Positions 25,116 through 38,292 of a stretch of DNA of 64,000 nucleotides are shown here, piece by piece; within the stretch, counting starts at the first letter, position 1; each line of letters begins with the position of its first letter. The stretch is taken from assembly GCA_027475525.1 (NCBI GenBank), contig JAMWFC010000117.1, positions 2,218,183 to 2,282,182 on the forward strand, read 5' to 3'. Source of the DNA: Macrolepiota albuminosa (Eukaryota; Basidiomycota; Agaricomycetes; Agaricales; Agaricaceae). The position numbers and the translations under genes are program-made. The notes beneath the pieces are model-generated. The model saw nothing but the letters and a program-made list of their open reading frames with translations. It made no database searches and was not told the DNA's origin.

Positions 25116-25837
25116 TGTCAGGTTCCGCTGAGTCGGGGGCTTTCCGGGAAAGCAACGCCCTTACAATGCGGACTTGACCCACGAATACTCGGGTGTCTGG
25201 AACTCCGGGGCTAGGACTCTGGGGTTCAAGACGAGGACAGGGGTAATCCCGGGATAGGGGACTAGAGTCCGGGGGTTTTGGGTTGGAGGTAACTGAGGTT
25301 AGAGGGGGTCGAGTCGTGAACCGGAGGTTCTAAGACGAGACCAAGTTAGTAAATCAAGAGTCGCAAAGTGCGTACCAAAACTTAGAGCACGCAAATACTT
25401 AGGCATGCCAGTCGAAGCGTACCAATCAAGGTGTACCAGTCAAGCAAAAGGGCACGCAATAACCAAAGTAACAGTGTATGTAATATCAAGACTGGCGAAT
25501 ACAACAGGGAGCTATGCTATAAGTACTATGGGGCTGGGTCTCGGGGTTCCGGGATGTCTGGGATGGGCTCCAGGGGTCATTGAGTAGCGGCAGGGGCTGC
25601 ATACCAGGATCGCGCGTGTGGGGCATGCGATCAATTGGCGCAGATAGAGCCGTGATGCGTGATGCGCAATGGCCGGGAATGAGTCGCGTGATCCGATCGT
25701 TGATCGGGGCTGGTGGCGGCTGATGGCGGTCCTTGATGCGCATGATGGCGGGGCATGTCCTGTGGGGTCGGAGGGAGGGTCCTGGAGGGTGTTCCGGAGG
25801 TGTCCCGGGGTAGGCCCGGAGGGAAGGGGTCGTGACA
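25116..25837 (-). repeat. 3' LTR of element B
   Basis: 722 bases, TGTCAGGTTCC to TCGTGACA on the plus strand, i.e. TGTCACGA to GAACCTGACA on the element strand. It lacks 21 bases present in the 5' LTR (around 35750-35771). Just inside (25838-25850) the element strand reads the purine run GAAGGGGAGGTGA, the likely polypurine tract. The antisense gene starts 126 bases farther in, so its promoter would be in or next to this LTR. Confidence 0.88.
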
Positions 25838-25963
25838 TCACCTCCCCTTCAGCGCTGAGACCCTCCAAGGCGCGCGTAGCCAGTGGTCCGGACCGGGGTC
25901 CAACCGTGGGATCCGGCACCTGACTTGCCACATATCGAAAAAATTTTACCGTCAAGTCCAACC

Positions 25964-27672
25964 ATGTCGCGTACGCCAACGCATTCCCCGACGCCCCCAC
26001 AAACCAACGAGGTCGCGCCCTTTATGGCCTGGGAGGCCCGGGATGCGCGGTATCGAGCCCGCCTGGACCAGGAGCGCGTGGCGGCGCTTGCACAACAACG
26101 TGAGTGCTTTCGCAATGGTCCGCTTACCGTGGCTGACTTTTCCCCTTCAGAACAACGATCTTCCCCCGCTCTGGAGGCGGGTCCCAGCCGTCTTCCGGAG
26201 CCTGCCTCTAGTGGCCCCCCGGCGTCGTCATCCGGTTGTCCCATGCCTACCTTCGCGCGGATGACCGTCCGCCCCCCGCGCCCACCTCCTCCTCCTCGTC
26301 CTAGGCTGACCGCCTCTCGTTTTCGCCGTTCCGGGATGGCGGTGGGGGCCATTTCTGAAGTCCCGGCGGACCGGCATGTTGCGTGGGAGGAGGTCTCACA
26401 GGAATCCTTTAGGGAAGCCCTGGAGAGGCCCCAGGGCTTGCCTCCTCATGCCTGGTGTGTGAGCAACGGGCCGGTAAGTAACCTTGCACCTCTGGTTTCG
26501 TTGCTGACCTCAGCGCAGTGTCTGCACTGTGCCCGCTGGGGGGTGATGTGCCTTTTCGAGGTCCCGGGCCCTTCGTCCCGCTGGGACACGTCTGTGTGCA
26601 AGGTGTGCCGCCTCAATCACGAACGATGTTCCGTGTCGGCGTTGTGGAGGGCGTGTTGCGTCGCGAGGGAACAGGGGTGGCCGCTCGGGGGGATTACCCG
26701 GAGGATGGGAGTTGAGGAGAGGGATTGGGTGGCGGAGCCGGAGGGGGAGCTACAGGCGGTGCCCGCGGGGGGTTCAGGAGGGGAATCGGGGAGCGGGGGT
26801 GCCATTCAGGTGGGGGGCCGGGGCCGGCCCGTGGTCCTTATCATGCGCCGGGTGACCTGGGCCGGGGGGAGTTGGGAGGGGCACGGCGGACGCCCTGACA
26901 AGGGAAAGCGGCAGGAGCCTGTCCCCCAGGCCTTCCAAGAGGGCGCGTCTGCCCTCTGAGACCCCGTCCCCGGCCTCTCCCGTGCGCGTTTTCCCGGCAG
27001 TGTTCTCTCCACTGTCTGGGCAACCTTTGGGCGTCGAGGTAAGGGAGTTGCAAGCGCGTCTGGAGCGGGCCGACCGGGAGAGGGAGGAGGCGGCGCTATG
27101 GCAGGGATTGGAGGAGGATCGCGAGGTGGCCCTCCGGGAGTTGGGGGAGGCGAGGGTGGCGCGGGGGGAGGCCGAGGCCCGGCTGGACACCATGGGGGCC
27201 AGGCTGGAGCAGGGGCTAGGGCTCCCGGGGCAGGGTCCCTCGGGGCTGGTCGAGGCTCTGCGCCGAGACGTAGTGATCGGGCGCATGGCCTCCCTAAGTG
27301 AGTACTCCCCTTCTTGTGGCTGGGCTGGTACTGATATCTCCAGGCTGGGCCTGGGAGCATCGCCTGCTCCTGGACGGAGTGGCCGCGGCGTTTGCCTCCT
27401 TGCAGGAGGGGCTGCAGTCCAGAGCGGGAAGCCCCGGGGTGGAGCAGGGTCTGGACCTGCTGGGGAGGCTGGTGACCACGCACCGCCAGAGGAACGTCCC
27501 AGCCCTGGGATCGTGGTTTGAGCGGGTCCTGGACGAGGGCGAGCAGCTCCCGTCGTGGGACCAGCTGGCAGAGGAAGTCTTGCAGGAGCACGGTCCAGAG
27601 GGAATGGGGGAGGCCTTCCGGGGCTGGCCGAGAGGAGGGGAGGGTGAGGATGGTTCGGGGCCCCAGCTCTAA
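25964..27672 (+). CDS. Element B antisense gene: paired CX2CX6C cluster plus coiled coil
   Basis: Opposite to B gag-pol, between chromodomain and 3' LTR, convergent with pol (whose stop is at 27953). ATG 25964 (MSRTPTHSP). Exons 25964-26099, 26151-26473, 26519-27297 and 27344-27672; introns of 51, 45 and 46 bases have GTGAGT or GTAAGT donors and CAG ends. Exon 3 opens with CLHCARWGVMC, a 15-residue linker, then CKVCRLNHERC: two CX2CX6C halves, like a fungal Zn2Cys6 binuclear cluster but without its usual basic residues. Then a basic PSKRARLP and a long charged coiled coil (RELQARLERADREREEAAL). The tail ends GEDGSGPQL. Relative to copy A an 8-base shortfall near 26915-26945 shifts frame, so B's copy may be damaged. 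A DNA-binding or dimeric regulator is inferred, not shown. Confidence 0.72.
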
Positions 27673-27952
27673 GGGCCCCCGTTTCCTTTCTGTTTTTTCT
27701 TTCTTGACATTGCTGGTTTCGTTTCCATAGTTCCTGCCTTTGTAATATTTGTAATTATAGAAAATGTATATACTTCGGTCTGTTCGAGTGAGTAAAAGGA
27801 AAGGTAATGTGGCGAGAAAGCGAGAGACCTTGCCCGACTCCAGGACACTACTACGAAGAGGTACTGAGAGAGAGTGAGTTGTGGAAAAGGAAAGCGGAAA
27901 GTATACATGGGAGTTGAATCCCTACTGAGCCCAGAGGCGGGGGTTACGCCCA
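27673..27952. other. Convergent 3' spacer between antisense gene and pol of B
   Basis: About 280 bases between the two stop codons. It contains T-rich stretches and a TTGTAATATTTGTAATTATAG-like region (27740-27760) where both transcripts could end. No ORF of note. The matching region in A is 36319-36594. Confidence 0.5.
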
Positions 27953-29392
27953 CTACTGCCGTCTGTGTGTCCTGCGCCCGGGAAGGTCGTTTTCCGAGTG
28001 CCGTTGTTGGAAGTCCCGGAGTTTGTCGAGGGCGCCTTCGAGGTTTCGGTGCGGTTCCCAAGTGTTGTCCTCCAGGCCGTATCCCTTCCACCGTACAAGG
28101 AAGTGGGGTCGTCCACGAATGTCCCGGGAGTCGAGGATGTCTTCAACCTCGTAATGGTACTCGTCCTTGACCTCGACCGGGGGAGGGGGCTCGGGGCGCT
28201 GTTCAGGGAAGGGATCCGGGGGGTGTCGCTCCAGGAGGCGGACGTGGAAAACCGGGTGCAGACCTTTTAGTCCCGGGGGAAGCTCGATCTTATAGGCGTG
28301 GGATGAGACCTTCTTCAATACTTTGAACGGGCCGAGACGCTTGTGATTGAGTTTTGGGGAGGGCTGGCAGGTGCAGAGGTGTCGTCGATCTAACCATACC
28401 TTTGTCCCGGGGGTCCAGTCGGGGGTGTCTTCCCGTTTCTGGTCAGCGTGTTTCACGTAGGCCCAGTTCGCAGTGTTGATCTCTTCCCGGAGAAACTCGT
28501 GAAGGGATTGGAGATCCCGGGCGACCTCGTGGGCGGCGTGCGACGGGATGTCCCAGAGCGAGAGTGTCAGTCGAGGGTGGTATCCCTTGTTGGCAAAGAA
28601 AGGGGATACCCCGGTGGCAGAGTGCGGCGTGTTGTTGTAGGTGAACTCGGCCAGGGGGAGCTCGGCACGCCAGTTGTCCTGTAAGTAGTTGACATACAGT
28701 CGGAGGTACTGCTCAAGAGACTGGTTGACCCTTTTGGTTTGGCCGTCAGTTTTGGGGTGGTAGGCGGTAGAGAGGTTAGTCTTTACTTCAAGTGCCTTAC
28801 ACAGGGAAGTCCAAAACTTGGACACGAAGAGAGGGCTATGGTCAGAGACGATGTTGTCCGGGAGTCCATGTTTGGCGAAGACGTGCTCGAGGAACAGCCG
28901 GGCGAAGTCCAGGGCGGTGTCCGTGGTGTGGCAGGGTAGGAAGATGCCCTGTTTGGTTAGCCTGCACACAACGACGAGAATGGCATCGAACTCTTCAGAC
29001 TCTGGGAGTTCAACGATGTGGTCCAGGGATATGGAGGACTAGGGGCGTTGTCCGACTGGCAGGGGTTTCAGGAGTCCGTATGGTCGGTGTTGGGGGACCT
29101 TGGCCCGGAGGCAGGGTTCACATGATCGAATGTAGCGGGTCACGTCCTTCTTCAACCCTGGCCAAAAGTAAGTCCGGGAGATCAGCTAGAGAGTCTTACG
29201 TATCCCAGGGTGTCCCCGGAGCTTGTGATCGTGGTGTTGACGGAGGACGTCGTAGCGGAGTCGGGCGTGATCCGGGACGTAGATGCAGCCGTCCCGGAGG
29301 AGGAGTTTTTCATCGGGGTACAAGGAGAAGGCGGGGTCCCGGTCGGTTCCGTCGGAAGAGTTTTGGGGGTCGTGATCGGTGAAGTACTTGTC
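27953..29392 (-). pseudogene. Element B Pol: integrase with carboxy-terminal chromodomain
   Basis: The core is intact over 338 codons (27953-28969): [53 protein letters not shown], the GPY/F-type end WLDRRHL with [19 protein letters not shown], then a chromodomain [20 protein letters not shown] followed by [20 protein letters not shown], with the usual aromatic residues. Upstream (29000-29390) the zinc-binding HHCC part is readable (GHPGI, SCEPCLRAK) but has stops. A TGA at 29393 separates it from RNase H, as in A. Chromodomains of this class bind methylated histone H3 and steer integration to heterochromatin; this fits the nested setting. Confidence 0.92.
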
Positions 29393-31024
29393 TCAGGGAG
29401 CGCGGCGGATCTGGTTCAGGGTTCCTTTGTTGTTTAAGATCAGTACAGCATTCAGATGTTCGGGAGGAATCACCACGTGATGATTGAACGCATTGCATTC
29501 CGCCTCAAATGACTTCTTGGGGTAGACGTCCGGTCGATGGGTGAGGGCATCGGGCTTGGCGCCAAGTCGTCCCGGGCAGTACTGGATCGTGAAGTCGTAT
29601 TCCAAGAGGATCTTGGACCATCGGGCCTGTCGTCGACTGAGTTGCTTGGTCGTGGTGAAGTACTGCAGGTTATTATGATCCGAATAGACCTGGATCCGGT
29701 GCCGGGCTCCCTCGAGGTAGGCCCGCCATTGCTTGAAGGCTTCGACAATGGCGAGGAGTTCCTTGTTGTAAATGTCGTAGTTGAGCTCGGCGTCAATCAT
29801 GGACCGGGTGTAGAAAGCGATTGGCTGGGGCTCCCCACCGTCAGACTCCATCTGTGAGAGGATCCTGGCAATGGCGTAGTCGGACGCGTCACATTCCAGG
29901 ATGATCGGGAGGGCCAGGTCGTAGTGCCAGAGTACCAGGGCAACTGTGAAAGCCTCCTTGAGCAGGTTAAAGACGCCCTGGCACTTACTGTCCCAGTTCC
30001 AGGCGGTGTCCTTACGCACGAGCCGGTTGAGGGGTTTCGTGATCCCAGAGTAGTTGTCTATAAACCTCCGGTAGAAGTTAGCGAAACCCAGGAAGGACTG
30101 TACTTCCTTCACGTTCCGGGGCTGCGGCCAGTTGACGATGGCCTCGACCTTGTGGGGGTCCATGCGAACGCCGTTCGGGGATACAATGACGCCAAGATAC
30201 TCAACCTCTTCCATATGGAATGAACACTTCTCAGGCTTGGCGTGGAGGTTGTGCTCCCGGAGGCGTTCGAGGACTTGCCGGACATGCTTCTGGTGATCCT
30301 CCGGTGAGTCAGAATAAATGAGGATGTCGTCCAGGTAGACGATCACAAAGACGTCGCTCATGTCGTGGAAGATGTCGTTCATGAAGTATTGGAACGTGGC
30401 GGGGGAGTTAGTCATTCCGAAAGGCATCACAAGGTACTCAAACAGACCATACCGCGTGCGGAACGCGGTTTTCCACTCGTGTCCCGGGGCGATGCGGACG
30501 TTGTTGTAACCGGAGCGGAGGTCGATCTTCGTATAAACCTTGGCACTGCGGAGTCGATCGACCAGATCGCCAATGAGCAGGAGCGGGTAGCGGTTCTTCT
30601 TGGTGATCTTATTGAGTCCCCGGTAGTCGACACAGAGTCAGAGCGAGCCGTCCTTCTTCTTGGCGAATAGAACCGGGGCTCCGGCGGCGGAGGCGGAGGG
30701 TCGGATGAATCCCTTACCGAGCATTTCGTCGAGGTAGTCCTTGAGAGCCCGGAGTTCGACCTCTGACATGTTGTAGACCTTGCCAAAAGGGGGGGTGGCT
30801 CCTTCCTCGAGGTCGATGGTGTGATCATAGGGGCGGTGAGGGGGGATCTCCTTGGCGTCTCCTTCGGAGAATACGTCAGCGAACTCGTGATACTCCGGGG
30901 GAACTACTTCTCGGAGGATTTGCTCCTTGGTTTTCTTTTCCGGGGGAATAGCGTCCCCTCGTAGATGTTCTTCCGGGAGAGAAGGCAAGGTGTGCAGCTG
31001 AAACATGGGAGTTCCATCCCTCAT
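29393..31024 (-). pseudogene. Element B Pol: reverse transcriptase and RNase H
   Basis: Starts with the pre-RT segment ([51 protein letters not shown]). One TGA at about 30636 replaces the CGA seen in A. RT continues with [34 protein letters not shown] and an intact catalytic [10 protein letters not shown]. RNase H follows: [39 protein letters not shown]. It ends RRAP then TGA. Unlike A, the active sites are conserved, so only nonsense codons block it. Confidence 0.92.
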
Positions 31025-32406
31025 GAGGCGGGCAAAGGGGGCGGCCCCAATGATCCTAATGTCGAGGGCGCTCGGGTCGATCGGGGTCGCGGAAGCATTG
31101 GCCGGAGCAGGTGTGACGCATGTCTGAGACCAGCAGGGGTAGTTCGGCCCTTTGTACTTGTTCCGAGGAATGTTTGGGGGTCGATCGGGGGCCTTGCTGT
31201 CTGAGACCAGCAGGGGTAGTTCGGCCCTTTGTACTTGTTCCGAGGAATGTTTGGGGGTCGATCGGGGGCCTTGCGGTCTCGGATGGGCATGGGGGGCATG
31301 GCAGTCGTCCCGGGGGTGTCAGGCGTCAGGTCGTTCCCTAGGGCCTGGAGGTGCACGGCGGTCGAGAAGTGGTCTTTGGGTCCCAGGAAGGTCATGGTGA
31401 GCGTCCTCCAATCGATGTCAGGGTTCGTGTCGCGCAGCCAGGGTAGTCCCAGCACCATCGGGGTCGATTCGTGAAGTCGCGTGACCAGGAAGTCGGAGGT
31501 GAACTCGTAGTTGTTGTCCAGGGTCACGTGTCCCGAGTGAGACCTCTGGATGGGGCCGGAGGAGGAGGGGATGCCGTCGAGGCGTTGCAGGCAGAGGGGC
31601 TGGACAAGGGAGTCGTGGGGGAGGTCGAGAGCGTCGCTGATGAAAACTCCGGTGGCTCCGCTGTCGATGAGGGCCGATATCGGTCCTGGGGCGCCGTCCA
31701 GCCTGGCATTGATGACAAAGGATTGGGATGAACGGGACTGGAGTCCGGGGGGTGATGGGGGCCCGTCCTTTGGGATAGGGTCCGGAGAGTGGGGGATGTC
31801 GAAGGGGAGTTGCTGGTCGTCGGGCATCGGATCCCGGGTCAGGCGAAGGGTGAGATGTCGCCAATCGATGCGGGGGTTGGTGTCTCGGAGCCATGGAAGC
31901 CCTAGGACCAGGGGTGTGGAAGGGTAAAGCTTGGTTATCAACATCCGGAGGGTGTGAGTCTGTCCGTTGGCGAAAGTAACGGGCATACGCATGAAATGAG
32001 TGATGTCCCCCGCCGTAGAGGTGTCTCCATTGAAGAGGCAGAGCCGTACCAGGACCGGGAGTCGCTGAGCGGGTTCTGGGGCGGAGGTAGACCATGCTTC
32101 GTCGATGAATTTGTTGGTGGCGCCACTGTCAATGAGGGTGTCGAGAGGGGTTCCGGAGGGGGTGAGGCAGGTTTTGAAGAGGAGGGAGTGTGAAGAGTGG
32201 GAGGGTAGGTAAGCCGTGAGGGTGTCCTGTATGAGTGTCGTAGAGCAAAGATGTGAGACTGGGGCAGAGAAGACGTCGGGGTTGATTCCGCGATTTAGAG
32301 CGTCTTCTGGGTCTAAATCGCCGGGTCGTTTTCCGAATACTCGTAGGTGGCATCCTCCCCTTCGAAGGTCCAGGTGGCACGTCCCATGACCTGTCGTTTG
32401 GGGCAC
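31025..32406 (-). CDS. Element B Pol amino-terminus: two retropepsin domains in tandem
   Basis: A long frame in -1 to gag. Repeat 1: [16 protein letters not shown], then [16 protein letters not shown]. Repeat 2: [16 protein letters not shown], then [17 protein letters not shown]. The two repeats are clearly diverged from each other, while each matches its counterpart in A, so the duplication predates both copies. The downstream frame is lost at an exact 77-base tandem duplication (31121-31197 repeated at 31198-31274). Deleting one unit puts this ORF in frame with RT, so the break may be an assembly artefact. Confidence 0.88.
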
Positions 32407-34041
32407 TCGGAGATAAAATGGTCTTTCTCACCACAGAGTATGCAGACGCCCTCCCTTCTCCGTCGTTCCTGCACATCCGTCAGGACTTCGATCCAGGGCC
32501 ATCTCTTCTTTTGAAGCCGGTTGGCCTGGAGGGCCTCCTCGTCTCGTTCGTCGTTGAGGTCGAAGTCTTCGGGGTCTTCTGGGGGTTCCTCGGGGCTTGG
32601 CGCATCGCCCGGGTCGTGGGCGGCCACGGTGGCATTGAGTTGGGCCTGGGGGTGGGCGCCGCTGCCGGGGTTAGCATTGGGCGGGCCGCGACTCACCAGA
32701 GGTCGGCCGCCAGGGAACGCGGGAGGGCCAGGGTTCCGACCTTGGGGGTTGGAGGCTTTGCCGGAGGGCCAAGGGGGTCCTCCTCTAGGGTTCCAAGGGG
32801 GTCAGGAATTTGAATACTCGCTGCGGTCTTCCCAGTAGCGTTGGTCGATCTGCATGACGAGGGCCTTGTATCCGTCGTAGGAGGGTTGTTTCGGGACGAG
32901 TCGGAGGATATCCTTGATGCATTGTGGCAGGGCACGGCGGAGGGCGTACCGGAGGGCGTATCGGAGGGCGCTGTAGTTCCAACCTGTTTCATAAGCTTCC
33001 TTCTCAAAACGTACGATAAAGGTGGTGAAACATTCTTCTGAGCGCATCCGTAGTTCCAACCTGTTTCATAAGCTTCCTTCTCAAAACGTACGATAAAGGT
33101 GGTGAAACATTCTTCTGAGCGCATCCGAGGTTGAAGAGGTTGTCCTCGGCTTTGGCCACGGTGTCGTAGATTCCGAACTTCCCGGAGAATTCGTCGACGA
33201 AGGCTTGCCAGCGAGCGAGTGCCGGGTTGTTGGGGTCAAACTGGATGAGGGCCATGTAGTGATCGAAGGCGATCCCCTGGAGGTACGATGCGGCAAAGGC
33301 CACCCAGGAGCTGTCAACCTGAAACGTGAGCGGCTTTGCCTGAAATGTATTGAGACACTGAGTGAGGAAGGTACGCCATTTTCAGGGGTCCTGGCCCGTG
33401 AAAGCATCGGGCTTTTGAATGTCCAGTTGTCCTTTGCGGGCGAGGGCGTCGCGAGTGTCGTCCGGTCCGGCAGCGTTGCGGGGAGGGGGGCCAGCATTGT
33501 AATAGTAGTAGTAGTGATTACCCCCCCCTCCTTGAGGAGGAAAAGCACCAAGGGCGGGGCCCCACCCGCCAGGAGGTCCTCCTCCGGGTGGCTCACCTGG
33601 AGGTCCACACCCAGGAGGCCCGTTGTCCCAAGGAGGTTCGTTCCTGCCAGGAGGGGGCCCGGGTCTCCACGCAGGGAGTGGCGGAGGTGGAGGGCCTGGG
33701 AGTCGTCCTCGGGTTCGTTCCTGCCAGGAGGGGGCCCGGGTCTCCACGCAGGGAGTGGCGGAGGTGGAGGGCCTGGGAGTCGTCCTCGAGATTTGGCTGG
33801 GGGTGGCGGAGGTGGTCGGGGAGGGTTCGGCGGTGTCGGGTCGGGCGGAGGGGGGTTGGGTGCTGGGTCGGGTACTGGGTTGCGCGGGGGACGTTCAACC
33901 CGGGAGGGTCGTGCTTGTATCGGGGGTCGCGGGGGGTTTTGTAGGTCAAAGTGGGGTGGCGGAGCCACGCGTAAGCTCGTCAATGTAGCACAGCGTGTCG
34001 TCCGTGCTAGGGGTGTCCGCGTGGGGTCGGGCGTTGTCTGT
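32313..34041 (-). pseudogene. Element B Gag: proline-rich region, capsid, CCHC knuckle
   Basis: Follows ORF1 after the shared TGA (34042-34044). A proline-rich stretch (33600-33980) is interrupted by an exact 77-base duplication at 33635-33788. The capsid reads SYLQGIAFDHYMALIQFDPN and ARWQAFVDEFSGKFGIYDT, loses one base near 33130, and is duplicated over 77 bases at 32973-33126. The knuckle [14 protein letters not shown] is at about 32396-32437. The ORF ends SENDPAI at 32313, overlapping the pol frame. Removing the two duplications restores most of the frame. Confidence 0.85.
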
Positions 34042-35085
34042 TCATGGGAGGGGTTCCAGGGGTCTTTGGGGCTGTCCCCAGGTCTCGAAGGTACTAGAAA
34101 CGGAGTTAGCCCTGCGGCGAGTTGACAAGTCTACCGTGCGGGCCGCGGGTTGATCAAAGAGGCCTCCAGCTGGATTGAGGGACCGCAACATGGCTGAGGC
34201 GTTTTGTCATTCTTCCCGTTGTCGTTGTTCCGGAGTGGGGACCGTGGAGGCTGCCAGGGCTGCTGGGGCCGGTTCCGGGAGTTCCCGTCGAATGTGAATT
34301 GAGCGACCTGGGTCCGCGGAGTTGTTGAGGGGCCGAGGAGAGGGGGACGCATGGACTTCGTTGAGCAGTTGCTGTAATTCTTCCCGGAGGATCGTATTGC
34401 GCCTATACTTTACCATGGTTTGCTCCGGGAGTTCTCCTCGCGTGAGGCGATCCCCGAATTTGACCAGGCAGTGAGCCCATTCCTCCAGAGTGCCTTCGAA
34501 GTCGTCGTGTCCGAATTCCACGAGCAGCGTTCTTGTCCGTTGCGCAAAGTCCTCCGGTGAGATCCTGAAAGAGCGGAGTACCTCGTCCCGTTGCCGTTCA
34601 TACTCTTTGAGGCGTCGTCGTCCCATTGGCGAGGGAGGGGTTCGAGCGGGTGGAGCGGCGGCTAGGTAATGACGAGGAGGGTAGTCGGGGTAGGGGGGTC
34701 CTCGGGGTTCTCGGGGTTGGGGGACGGGGCGCTGATAACCGTAGTAGGGGGTAGGCGCAAAGGGGCCCTCGCTGGGGGAAATCGGGCGAGGTCCACTGGG
34801 TACAGGTGGGGTCTCCGGCAGGCCCCCGGGGATGCTCCGGTATGAGGAGACCTCCACGGGTCGTGCCATGGCTAAGTTGGGTGGAGGGGCCCAGCTGGCT
34901 GAGGGCCCCAGGTCGTAGAGGGACGGGTCGGGGGCCCAGTGGCGGTGGAGGTATTGAGGTTCGTACAGGAGAGGTGGATAGATGGGGCAGGGGGTCTGCA
35001 CGGAGTAGTGATCGGGTACCGGGCATCCGTAAGGGTCGGTCTGGTACCCCGTGGGGTAGTAAGTGTGAGTATACGTAGCCATCAA
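34042..35085 (-). pseudogene. Element B ORF1: proline/tyrosine-rich protein upstream of Gag
   Basis: Starts MMATYTHTYYPTGYQ at 35085 and is open for 292 codons to TGA 34207. There copy A has CAA, so the ancestral codon was probably CGA, which decays to either by a CpG transition. Reading on, it reaches the TGA at 34042-34044 shared with A. The carboxy half has helices (RRRLKEYERQRDEVLRSFRI, KYRRNTILREELQQLLNEV). No domain recognised. Position before Gag and conservation in two copies suggest a real element protein. Confidence 0.65.
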
Positions 35086-35102
35086 GAACGGTGTAAGAAG
35101 GG

Positions 35103-35115
35103 AGTCTTGATATTA
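35103..35115 (-). promoter_or_regulatory. Self-complementary primer-binding site of element B
   Basis: On the element strand TAATATCAAGACT abuts the 5' LTR (35116). The exact reverse complement, AGTCTTGATATTA, is inside that LTR (plus-strand 35481-35493), so all 13 bases can pair in the transcript. This is the arrangement expected of self-primed Tf1-like elements. Confidence 0.78.
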
Positions 35116-35858
35116 TGTCAGGTTCTGCTGAGTCAGGGGCTTTCCGGAAAAGCAACGCCCTTACAATGCGGACTTGACCCACGAATACTCGGGTATCTGG
35201 AACTCCGGGGCTAGGACTCCGGGGTTCAAGACGAGGACAGGGGTAATCCCGGGATAGGGAACTAAAGTCCGGGGGTTTTGGGTTGGAGGTAACTGAGGTT
35301 AGAGGGGGTCAAGTCGTGAACCGGAGGTTCTAAGACAAGACCAAGTTAGTAAATCAAGAGTCGCAAAGTGCGTACCAAAACTTAGAGCACGCGAATACTT
35401 AGGCGTGCCAGTTGAAGCGTACCAATCAAGGCGTACCAGTCAAACAAAAGGGCACACAATAACCAAAGTAACAGTGTATGTAATATCAAGACTGGCGAAT
35501 ACAACAGGGAGCTACGCTATAAGTACTACGGGGCCGGGTCTCGGGGTTCCGGGATGTCTGGGATGGGCTCCGGGGATCATTGAGTAGCGGCAGGGGCTGC
35601 ATACCGGGATCGCGCATGTGGGGCGCACGATCAATTGGTGCGGATGGAGCCGTGATGCGTGATGTGCGATGGCCAGAAACGAGTTGTGTGATCCGATCGT
35701 TGATCGGGGCTGGTGGCAGCTGATGGCGGTCCTTGATGCGTGTGATGGCGGTGTCGGCGGTCGTGATGGCAGGGCGTGTCCTGTGGGGTCGGAGAGAGGG
35801 TTCCGGAGGGTGTTCCGGGGGTGTCCCAGGGTAGGCCCGGAGGGGAGGGGTCGTGACA
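35116..35858 (-). repeat. 5' LTR of element B
   Basis: 743 bases with the same TGTCACGA and CCTGACA ends as the A LTRs. It includes the predicted transcript start at 35493 (reading leftward) with a TATA-like element just upstream (35516-35523 region). Flanked on its outside by GCCCC, half of the B target duplication. Confidence 0.88.
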
Positions 35859-36594: not shown

Positions 36595-38292
36595 CTAGAG
36601 CTGGGGCCCTGAACTACCCTCACCCTCCCCTCCCCTCGGCCAGCTCTGGAAATCTTCCCCCACCCCCTCCGAATCGTGTTCCCGCCGCACCTCCTCGGCC
36701 AGTTGGTCCCAGGACGGAAGCGGCTCACCCTCATCCAAAACTCGCTCAAACCACAACCCCGGGGCCGGGACGTTCCTCCAGCGGTGCGTGGTCACCAGCC
36801 TCCCCAACAGGTCCAGACCCCGCTCCACCCCGGAGTTCCCCGCCTCTGACTGTAGTTCCTCTTGCAGGGAGGCGAGTGCCGCGGCCACTCCATCCAGGAG
36901 CTGACGATGCTTCTGAGCCCAGCCTGGGGATATCAGTACCGACTCAACCACGAGAAAAGGAGTACTCACTGAGAGAGGCCATACACCCAATTACCACATC
37001 TCAGCGCAGAACCTTGACCAACCCCGGGAGGCCTTGCCCAAGGAGCCCAACCCCCTGCTCCAGCCTGGCCCCCATGGCGTCCAGCCGGGCCTCAGCCTCC
37101 CCCCGTGCCACCCCCACCTCCCCCAACTCCCGGAGGGCCACCTCGCGATCCTCCTCCAGCCTCCGCCAGAGCGCCGCCTCCTCCCTCGCCCCCTCCTCGC
37201 GTTCCTCCCTCTCCCGGTCTGCCTGCTCTCAACGCACCTGCAATTCCCTCACCTCGGCGCTCAACGGTCGTCCAGACAGCGGGGAGAATACCGCCAGGGA
37301 TGGGGAGGCCGGAGATGGGGTCTCCACGGGCAAACACACCCTCTTGGAGGGGCCCAGGGAGGGACTGGGCGACGCCCGCTGCTTCCCCTTGTCCAGGCAC
37401 CCTCCCTGCCCCTGGATACCAGACCAAGGAGCCCGGCGCGTGATCAGCACCACGGGCCGGCCCCGGCCCCCCACCCGGGCGACCCCCTGACCCCCCGACC
37501 CCCCGCTGGGCGCCTCTGCAGGCGCTGCGGGCACCTCCCCCACCGGCTCCGCCACCCAATCCTGCTCCTCGACCCCCATCCTCCGGGTAACCTCCCTTAG
37601 CGGCCATCTCTGCTCCCGGGTGACACAACGCGCCCTCCACAGCGCTGACATGAAACAACGTTTGTGGTTGAGGTGGCAAGCCTCACACATGGCCGTGTCC
37701 CGGTGGGACGAGGGGCCCGGAACTTCGAACAAGCAAAGCACCCCTCGACGAGCACAGTGCAAGCACTGCACCGGAGTCAGCAAGAGGGATCAGAGGTAGG
37801 AAAACGACTCACTGGTCTGTTGTTCACGCACCAGACATGAGTAGGCAGACCCCGGAGCCTCTCCAGAGCCTCCATGAACAGATCCTGCATCGTGCCCGCC
37901 CACGCAACACGTTGACTCTCCAGGACCTCTGACATGGTCCCTATCTCCATCCCGGAACGATGAAAGCGGGGGGCAGGCAATCTAGGATGGGGAGGGTGGA
38001 CAGTCATGCACGCAAAGGTCAGCGCAGGACGGCTGGAACCCGCTCCAGGAACAGATTCCGGGAGCTGGCTGGGACCCGCCTCTGGGGCAGTGGTGTTGTG
38101 TTGTTCTGAAAAAAGAAGATCAGTAGCGACAAGCGAGCGGCACAGAAACCACTCATGTTGTTGCATGAGCGCCGCCACGCGCTCCCGGTCTTGGCGGGCT
38201 CGGTACCACGCGTCCCGGGCTTCCCAGGCCATGAGGGGCGCGACCTCGTTGGTTTGCGGGGGCATCGGGGAATGTATTGGCATACGTGACAT
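36595..38292 (-). pseudogene. Element A antisense gene: paired CX2CX6C cluster plus coiled coil
   Basis: Counterpart of 25964-27672, opposite to A gag-pol. ATG at 38292 (MSRMPIHSP). The first donor has decayed (ATGAGT for GTGAGT). Intron 2 is 37766-37812, 47 bases, against 45 in B; only its removal joins the exons in frame, strong evidence that it is spliced. The cluster is CLHCARRGVLC and CEACHLNHKRC, 15 residues apart, identical in spacing to B. After a basic SKRVCLP stretch the coil is cut by a TGA at about 37230. The last exon ends SSGPQL at 36595. Conservation of cysteines and splice sites between decayed copies suggests past selection. Confidence 0.72.

Follow-up and report, generated by a model that had tools for sequence, protein, structure and literature searches.

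The locus described here raises the question of what a gene with introns is doing on the reverse strand of a retrotransposon. The window, a stretch of 64,000 nucleotides (nt) from the fungus Macrolepiota albuminosa, carries two related long terminal repeat (LTR) elements, A and B, one nested in the other, and an earlier note drawn from its letters had reported in both a spliced gene antisense to gag-pol, between the chromodomain and the 3′ LTR. The gene is indeed found in both elements at the coordinates given below, and the alignment of its copies identifies it as a four-exon protein-coding accessory gene of a large chromovirus family, under purifying selection. That it is kept by selection and is yet more varied than the rest of the element suggests a module for self-control or anti-silencing.

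Structure of the Antisense Gene

25964-26099, plus strand: gene B exon 1, with the ATG; 136 nt in most rows of the alignment
26100-26150, plus strand: gene B intron 1, 51 nt, GT..CTGAC..AG; 49-53 nt in 12 open copies
26151-26473, plus strand: gene B exon 2
26474-26518, plus strand: gene B intron 2, 45 nt, GT..CTGAC..AG; 44-47 nt in 12 open copies
26519-27297, plus strand: gene B exon 3, with the cysteine cluster (26519-26629), a conserved post-Cys segment, a Gly-rich linker, a basic stretch like a nuclear localization signal and a coiled coil; frame disrupted
27298-27343, plus strand: gene B intron 3, 46 nt, GT..CTGAT..AG; 45-48 nt in 12 open copies
27344-27672, plus strand: gene B exon 4, conserved C-terminal region; stop codon at 27670-27672
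38292-38157, 38105-37813, 37765-36970 and 36923-36595, minus strand: gene A, four exons, with in-frame stops

Each intron of gene B has a GT, a CTGAC or CTGAT branch-like site and an AG. In gene A, intron 2 occupies 37812-37766 (47 nt), and the coordinates of introns 2 and 3, the 47- and 45-nt lengths and the cysteine spacing put forward in the earlier note all proved exact. Intron 1 was implied by the numbering of that note, which left its coordinates out, and position 25838, taken there as the start of the gene, is the edge of the LTR; the gene starts at 25964. The exons share no overlap with the gag-pol frame. An addition to the earlier description is that both window copies are broken: the frame of gene B is disrupted in exon 3, with a first stop at amino acid (aa) 299, and gene A has in-frame stops, the first at aa 321. 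The intron 1 donor of copy A reads AT instead of GT (window position 38156), a change at a CpG, which would fit decay driven by methylation.

The introns of the antisense gene survive retrotransposition, persisting because the antisense strand is invisible to splicing of the gag-pol RNA, and the gene therefore needs its own promoter. The antisense promoter called for earlier is supported by this logic and most likely lies near the 3′ LTR.

Copies in the Genome and Their Reading Frames

A search of the fungus's own genome (100 Mb in 129 contigs) gave 54 DNA matches to the antisense gene and at least 143 protein matches to exon 3 (the best 140 of 1188 candidates were scored). No internal stop interrupts 115 of these 143 exon-3 rows, in a best-scoring-first order that biases toward intact copies. 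The loci examined, numbered with an L, comprise 30 found by DNA, 30 by protein (9 of them repeat retrievals), 14 diverged ones and 6 added from the list of chromodomains. Absence from related elements, which the earlier note had regarded as telling against the gene, did not occur: the integrase C-terminal region with its chromodomain (IN-chromodomain) lies opposite the gene in 60 of 60 flanked loci, 9 being repeat retrievals and 1 a window copy. Among 150 chromodomain matches (the best 150 of 1514 candidates), 66 have a listed exon-3 row within 4 kb, on the opposite strand in 66 of 66; this pairing used 141 of the 143 exon-3 rows, and both sets consist of best-scoring matches only. Chromodomain elements without the gene were sought among the 84 matches that have no listed partner, and none turned up in the 6 sampled, all six of which carry it. 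Judged by these matches, the antisense gene is present in most copies of the element family. Four of these six (L075, L077, L079, L080) have a deep cassette type of the gene, with an exon 3 that is 49-59% identical to that of the L018 type, in the same kind of element, and 3 of the 4 copies are open, with 560 aa and the same introns.

After removal of the three introns, 12 distinct copies are open over 520-560 codons, and exons 1 and 2 are together in frame in 44 of 59 rows. Intron lengths vary among the 12 open copies while the frame stays. The length is not a multiple of 3 for intron 1 in 6 of them, intron 2 in 4 and intron 3 in 6, and at least one intron has such a length in 10 of the 12 (the exceptions being L049 and L060), so that splicing is needed for the frame there. 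A conserved alternative frame in exon 3 was rejected, as in 11 of the 12 copies none of the five remaining frames stays open; L060 also has two opposite-strand frames open. L060 is moreover a possible mosaic, which resembles L049 in exons 1-2 and at the beginning of exon 3 and L018 in exon 4, through either recombination or assembly. The AT at the intron 1 donor is shared by copy A, L009, L030, L068 and L070, and other splice sites are lost in L026, L058, L071 and L072.

Across 363 kb of sequence (the window and the retrieved loci, some counted twice), 65 tandem duplications consist of two identical copies with a period of 77; the rest of the range of periods from 25 to 199 yielded no exact duplication. 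Those in the window lie at 31121, 32973 and 33635. We infer that these duplications are an artefact of graph assembly with k=77. They break reading frames in some copies, and segment linkage and copy identity, for example eight equal exon-3 scores, may be partly assembler-made; regional diversity should not arise from them.

Purifying Selection on the Antisense Gene

Among the 12 open copies, which represent mostly old divergences, codon positions 1, 2 and 3 differ at rates of 0.166, 0.137 and 0.354, respectively, and a codon model gives a ratio of nonsynonymous to synonymous change (dN/dS, omega) of ~0.16. These open copies and this omega support the earlier proposal of a spliced antisense gene in a chromovirus that would encode a protein. 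The median NG86 omega is 0.208 at dS 0.5-0.8 (27 pairs) and 0.22 at dS >0.8 (31 pairs), with a range of 0.155-0.253 for the 58 pairs at dS >0.5; at lower dS it is 0.238 (dS 0.2-0.5, 2 pairs) and 0.347 (dS <0.2, 6 pairs). A dN/dS near 1, the other outcome that the earlier note had set against the gene, was not observed, the median being 0.21-0.22 and that of the six closest pairs 0.35. Picking open copies filters out stops, not amino-acid changes. Pairwise omega for the IN-chromodomain is 0.09-0.35, with one near-identical pair at 1.1, and the omega of the antisense gene is 0.16-0.22; by this measure the gene is conserved like other element proteins.

Constraint differs along the protein. Over the 58 pairs with dS >0.5 (54-58 usable by region), omega is low in the post-Cys segment (0.065), the C-terminal exon (0.115), the N-terminus (0.116) and the Cys cluster (0.148), and higher in the basic stretch (0.214), the coil (0.326), the tail (0.46) and the Gly linker (0.74).

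Features of the Encoded Protein

The cluster CX2CX6C-X15-CX2CX6C begins at the first codon of exon 3 and is followed by the conserved post-Cys segment GWPLxGITRRMGVEERDW and then the Gly-rich linker. The basic stretch DKGKRRASPSPSPGPSKRAR, also in exon 3, is by its pattern presumably a nuclear signal. All six cysteines are found in 12 of 12 open copies, and in an alignment of 24 of the 32 stop-free rows the six columns are occupied in 24, 24, 24, 23, 24 and 24 of 24. Fifteen residues make up the loop between the two Cys halves, in the window copies and in all 24 rows of the alignment alike; the loop of canonical Zn2Cys6 proteins has 5-12. The earlier description of the product as Zn2Cys6-like stands as regards six conserved cysteines in two CX2CX6C halves, but the protein fails the Zn_clus profile and its loop is longer, and we call it a Cys6 protein rather than Zn2Cys6, though the layout may work like one. 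Matches to Zn_clus at E<=1 occur in 4 of 24 exon-3 rows (best E 0.082).

The model of exon 3 has a helix over residues 186-247, with block means of the predicted local distance difference test (pLDDT) of 74-97. The exon-4 model is poor (pLDDT 52), and C-terminal helices are predicted at low confidence. Pfam scans of the 24 exon-3 rows gave weak coiled-coil-like matches, to Cep57_CLD_2 in 7 (best E 0.00076) and to Talin_middle in 2; neither a bZIP family nor DUF1985/DUF287 (VANC) is among the Pfam matches.

A search with the whole intact protein gave no match at E<=0.001 among the best 7989 word-sharing candidates from the protein database, probably being swamped by low-complexity words. Residues 126-236 gave 46 candidates there and none at E<=10, and IMG/VR contigs gave 88 pattern matches and no relatives. 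The reverse transcriptase (RT) of element A, used as a control query, retrieved 4483 relatives at E<=1e-20, including, among the matches listed, Termitomyces, Pleurotus and Trametes; agaric proteins are therefore in the database. The search needs shared 5-residue words, and the antisense gene may be unannotated in agaric entries.

A Diversity Island over the Gene

26000-27900, no strand: island of diversity, in which 100-base bins have a mean pairwise difference of 0.15-0.32; that of the bin at 27900 is down to 0.075

A further addition to the earlier note is an island of diversity that coincides with the gene, measured in 35 elements (the 24 of L002-L027 other than L010 and L016, plus nine later loci and both window copies). 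Outside it, the mean pairwise difference is 0.07-0.16 over the LTR and leader and 0.06-0.10 from 27900 through integrase. At fourfold sites the median difference is 0.32 in the antisense gene and 0.155 in the adjacent IN-chromodomain, the gene exceeding the latter in 537 of 595 pairs; the other 58 include pairs of one cassette type. Among the 561 usable pairs of the 595, both flanks are less diverged than the gene exons in 488 and than its introns in 491. Elements A and B are 82-95% identical from LTR to pol and 68-83% identical over the antisense gene.

The distances in the gene and in the IN-chromodomain correlate weakly (0.32). Fourfold differences between L018 and L051 are 0.347 in the gene and 0.080 in the IN-chromodomain, and those between L015 and L020, of one cassette type, are 0.097 and 0.190. 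The gag of L018 and L051 is 91-98% identical in 6 of 7 bins and 77% in the first, an edge bin, the gag stretches having been located by distance from the two chromodomains and assumed to belong to the same elements. Cassette and backbone thus appear, from these distances, to have followed separate histories, the pattern expected of exchange by recombination. Because divergence is deep while omega is near 0.2, the data suggest long-kept cassette types rather than relaxed constraint.

Two other causes of the island were considered. A higher mutation rate is argued against, though not formally, by integrase fourfold sites ~280-1230 bases from the gene end, which differ half as much as the gene's. 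Assembly was rejected, as the island stays in the 15 of 35 elements that have no exact 77-base duplication in the locus: in these the gene exceeds the IN-chromodomain in 102 of 105 pairs (medians 0.364 and 0.167). The 15 include both window elements, though B has three exact 77-base duplications in gag-pol and A one near-exact.

The Nested Chromoviruses and the Leader

25116-35858, gag-pol on the minus strand: element B, TGTCA..TGACA LTRs, target-site duplication GCCCC on both sides
17741-39165, plus strand: element A, GCATC on both sides; interrupted by element B (25116-35858)
25116-25837, minus strand: LTR at the 3′ end of element B, repeated at 35116-35858 and bounded by TGTCA..TGACA, with a 5-bp duplication; its U3 end abuts the antisense gene
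35116-35858, minus strand: 5′ LTR of element B, repeat with 25116-25837
27953-28969, minus strand: C-terminal part of integrase, Tf2-1-like SH3 and chromodomain of element B (Pfam scan)
25841-25963, plus strand: 5′ leader of the antisense gene and, on the minus strand, a polypurine tract; identity 88-100% over 18 tabulated pairs

Element B is inserted into the pol gene of its relative, element A, both having 5-bp target duplications; the boundaries were read by eye. Retrotrans_gag, protease, RVT_1, RT_RNaseH, SH3_Tf2-1 (66 bits) and Chromo (51.2 bits) score above the Pfam cut-offs in the window elements, and the integrase core, rve, scores 19.7 bits, below its cut-off of 32.6. Judged by this domain content, the elements are chromoviruses, that is, Ty3/gypsy elements with a chromodomain at the integrase C-terminus. 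Among the matches listed, the nearest named protein to the RT of element A is from Termitomyces sp. T112 (68-76% identity), besides those of other mushroom fungi.

Most of 15 aligned elements closely resemble one another over the ~120 bases upstream of the ATG; L079 departs from this most clearly. The U3 beside the antisense gene holds a degenerate 11-nt array at 25774-25822 (4.5 copies, 75% match). CGG/CCG triplets are present in the leader (25841-25963) and may be due to chance, the DNA being G+C-rich; Zn2Cys6 factors bind triplets of this type.

A Putative Self-Regulator and the Alternatives

We give roughly even chances to the reading that the antisense product, HBZ-like and made from an antisense promoter, works in the nucleus as a dimer on DNA or chromatin and regulates its own element. 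A promoter in the U3 or the leader by the 3′ LTR would give rise to a transcript that is then spliced, and the product of 520-560 aa would enter the nucleus by its basic stretch, pair through its coiled coil and bind element DNA or chromatin by its Cys6 cluster, so that gag-pol expression is tuned. If such control were type-specific, divergent cassettes would be kept and would be swapped among elements by recombination, which would produce the diversity island. More speculatively, one chromovirus backbone might carry many deeply divergent, interchangeable antisense regulator cassettes under frequency-dependent selection, each controlling or protecting elements of its own type while rare types escape; these 'immunity types', which we hold to be possible but doubtful, can be likened to phage immunity groups set by divergent repressor cassettes.

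Several observations weigh against the self-regulator. Only 14 of 65 rows (12 distinct sequences) are open at the expected length; L012 and L021 read past the usual stop, L070 is open but lacks the aligned ATG, and the remaining rows are interrupted, some by the 77-base artefact, which also weakens claims of linkage. The third cysteine is missing from L058, which is stop-free and stands outside the alignment. The Pfam score for Zn_clus (PF00172), 10.8 bits, is far below the cut-off of 21, and the Cys region of the exon-3 model, with helices at 2-7 and 28-36, reaches a pLDDT of only ~50. A Foldseek fold search returned 0 matches, and in a sequence search of the PDB the best E values were 0.59 and 0.66, none significant. 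The leader and LTR, which would be the obvious targets, vary little among cassette types and are therefore a poor fit to type-specific operators there.

The rivals are, in order of strength, VANC-like anti-silencing, control like that by p22 of Ty1 and a role at the level of RNA. In the first, which we consider unlikely though worth keeping in view, the protein would bind its own element and remove host DNA methylation or heterochromatin, host silencing driving the diversity of the gene. VANC is encoded by a transposable element, is sequence-specific and varies much more than the transposase encoded alongside it (PMC5735166), and the accessory gene here is likewise more variable than gag-pol; VANC targets, however, are often tandem repeats, whereas in elements A and B, the 77-base repeats aside, the repeat units are 7-37 bases long and occur in no more than 5.6 copies, and no VANC domain appeared in the Pfam scans. 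A copy-number or particle factor, acting in the virus-like particle or on integrase or Gag of its own type only, seems improbable. The control of Ty1 rests on a subfamily-specific gag that has spread through transfer and recombination (PMC7055915), a shared backbone with cassettes specific to type has the same shape, and the predicted coiled coil could mediate self-association. But p22 is a fragment of Gag (PMC4599808) and the antisense product is not read from gag; a Gag target predicts that Gag co-varies, yet between two cassette types the identity of gag is 91-98% in 6 of 7 bins, and a nuclear site is suggested by the basic stretch and the Cys cluster.

We give a small probability to the antisense RNA being as important as the protein, with sense and antisense strands forming double-stranded RNA and this segment yielding small RNAs whose existing pool new cassettes escape. 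Antisense transcripts of LTR elements can trigger silencing by double-stranded RNA (PMC7264820, PMC12786077), and diversity is raised in the introns and the 3′ untranslated region as well as the exons, with a sharp end near the gene end; an omega of 0.16 and the conserved cysteines would go unexplained, and the leader is conserved although it too would be double-stranded. A zinc cluster with a coiled coil is a common layout of fungal factors, and introns imply a DNA-level or antisense origin, both of which would suit a captured host gene resembling a transcription factor, riding as a passenger without function for the element. We think this very unlikely given the omega of 0.155-0.253 in 58 pairs at dS >0.5 and the presence of the gene in every element sampled with flanks, and no host relative turned up in the searches of the protein database and the fungus's own genome, beyond which no further search was made. 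Lastly, third-position G+C of 0.77-0.83 lengthens chance frames and the 65 exact 77-base duplications show that artefacts exist, so that a chance open frame or an assembly product might be entertained; with the third-position excess, omega, intron lengths and cysteines holding across deep types, and no other exon-3 frame open in 11 of 12 copies, the chance that there is no gene is negligible.

Comparison with Known Systems

LTR elements with antisense accessory genes have been on record since the 1990s; what these genes do was still listed as unknown in a 2020 review, which calls for a study of antisense and spliced transcripts (PMC7264820). The antisense additional open reading frames (aORF-3R) of plant LTR elements include those of Grande (gene23), RIRE2, Retand and PvRetro13, and for that of Grande an upstream promoter of its own and a nuclear product are reported (PMC7264820). 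The fungal gene resembles these in being antisense between pol and the 3′ LTR, as seen in the 60 of 60 loci with the IN-chromodomain opposite. It differs in its introns and its Cys6 cluster: the word 'intron' is absent from the review, and its available parts describe no such cluster and no comparison of diversity between accessory gene and pol (PMC7264820).

The claim of novelty in the earlier note was too wide, since an antisense gene between pol and the 3′ LTR is already known in fungal Ty3/gypsy elements: brtn is an antisense additional gene of Boty-like elements of Botrytis cinerea and Sclerotinia, as cited in PMC7264820 and PMC8365987. It is the nearest precedent, an antisense gene in fungal Ty3/gypsy elements, known here through the descriptions of the citing papers alone. 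The original study is reportedly that of Zhao et al. in 2011. The literature searched, which was largely open-access, yielded no description of an antisense gene of a fungal chromovirus that is spliced or encodes a Zn cluster, and the word 'antisense' is absent from the main text of PMC3248453 and PMC2864245. So far as that literature goes, the novelty lies in a multi-intron structure that many copies bear out, in the Cys6 cluster, in selection that has been quantified and in the island of diversity. An intron-bearing, strongly selected, regulator-like antisense gene that has at least 143 matches within a single fungal genome and a diversity peak with sharp edges would make the role of antisense accessory genes experimentally approachable in a fungus, and the peak itself points to type-specific action as the thing to examine.

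Zn2Cys6 factors typically have a basic stretch and a coiled coil downstream of the cluster, as in the antisense product. They (PF00172) share with it two CX2CX6C halves and basic residues in the first half, and are set apart by its loop of 15 residues and its Pfam score (10.8 bits, cut-off 21). VANC is likewise an accessory protein encoded by a transposable element and more variable than the transposition protein, but VANDAL is an Arabidopsis DNA transposon with other domains, and no antisense arrangement is described in the available part of PMC5735166. Ty1 offers a subfamily-specific self-control with a recombining control region (PMC7055915), although p22 is a Gag fragment. A further likeness in layout is to HBZ of human T-cell leukemia virus type 1 (HTLV-1) and APH-2 of HTLV-2, each made from a spliced antisense transcript of the 3′ LTR and regulating LTR activity, HBZ binding its partners by its zipper (PMC3185765). 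Here too a spliced antisense gene is predicted beside the 3′ LTR; it has no bZIP match and a Cys6 cluster instead, and it belongs to a chromovirus rather than a retrovirus.
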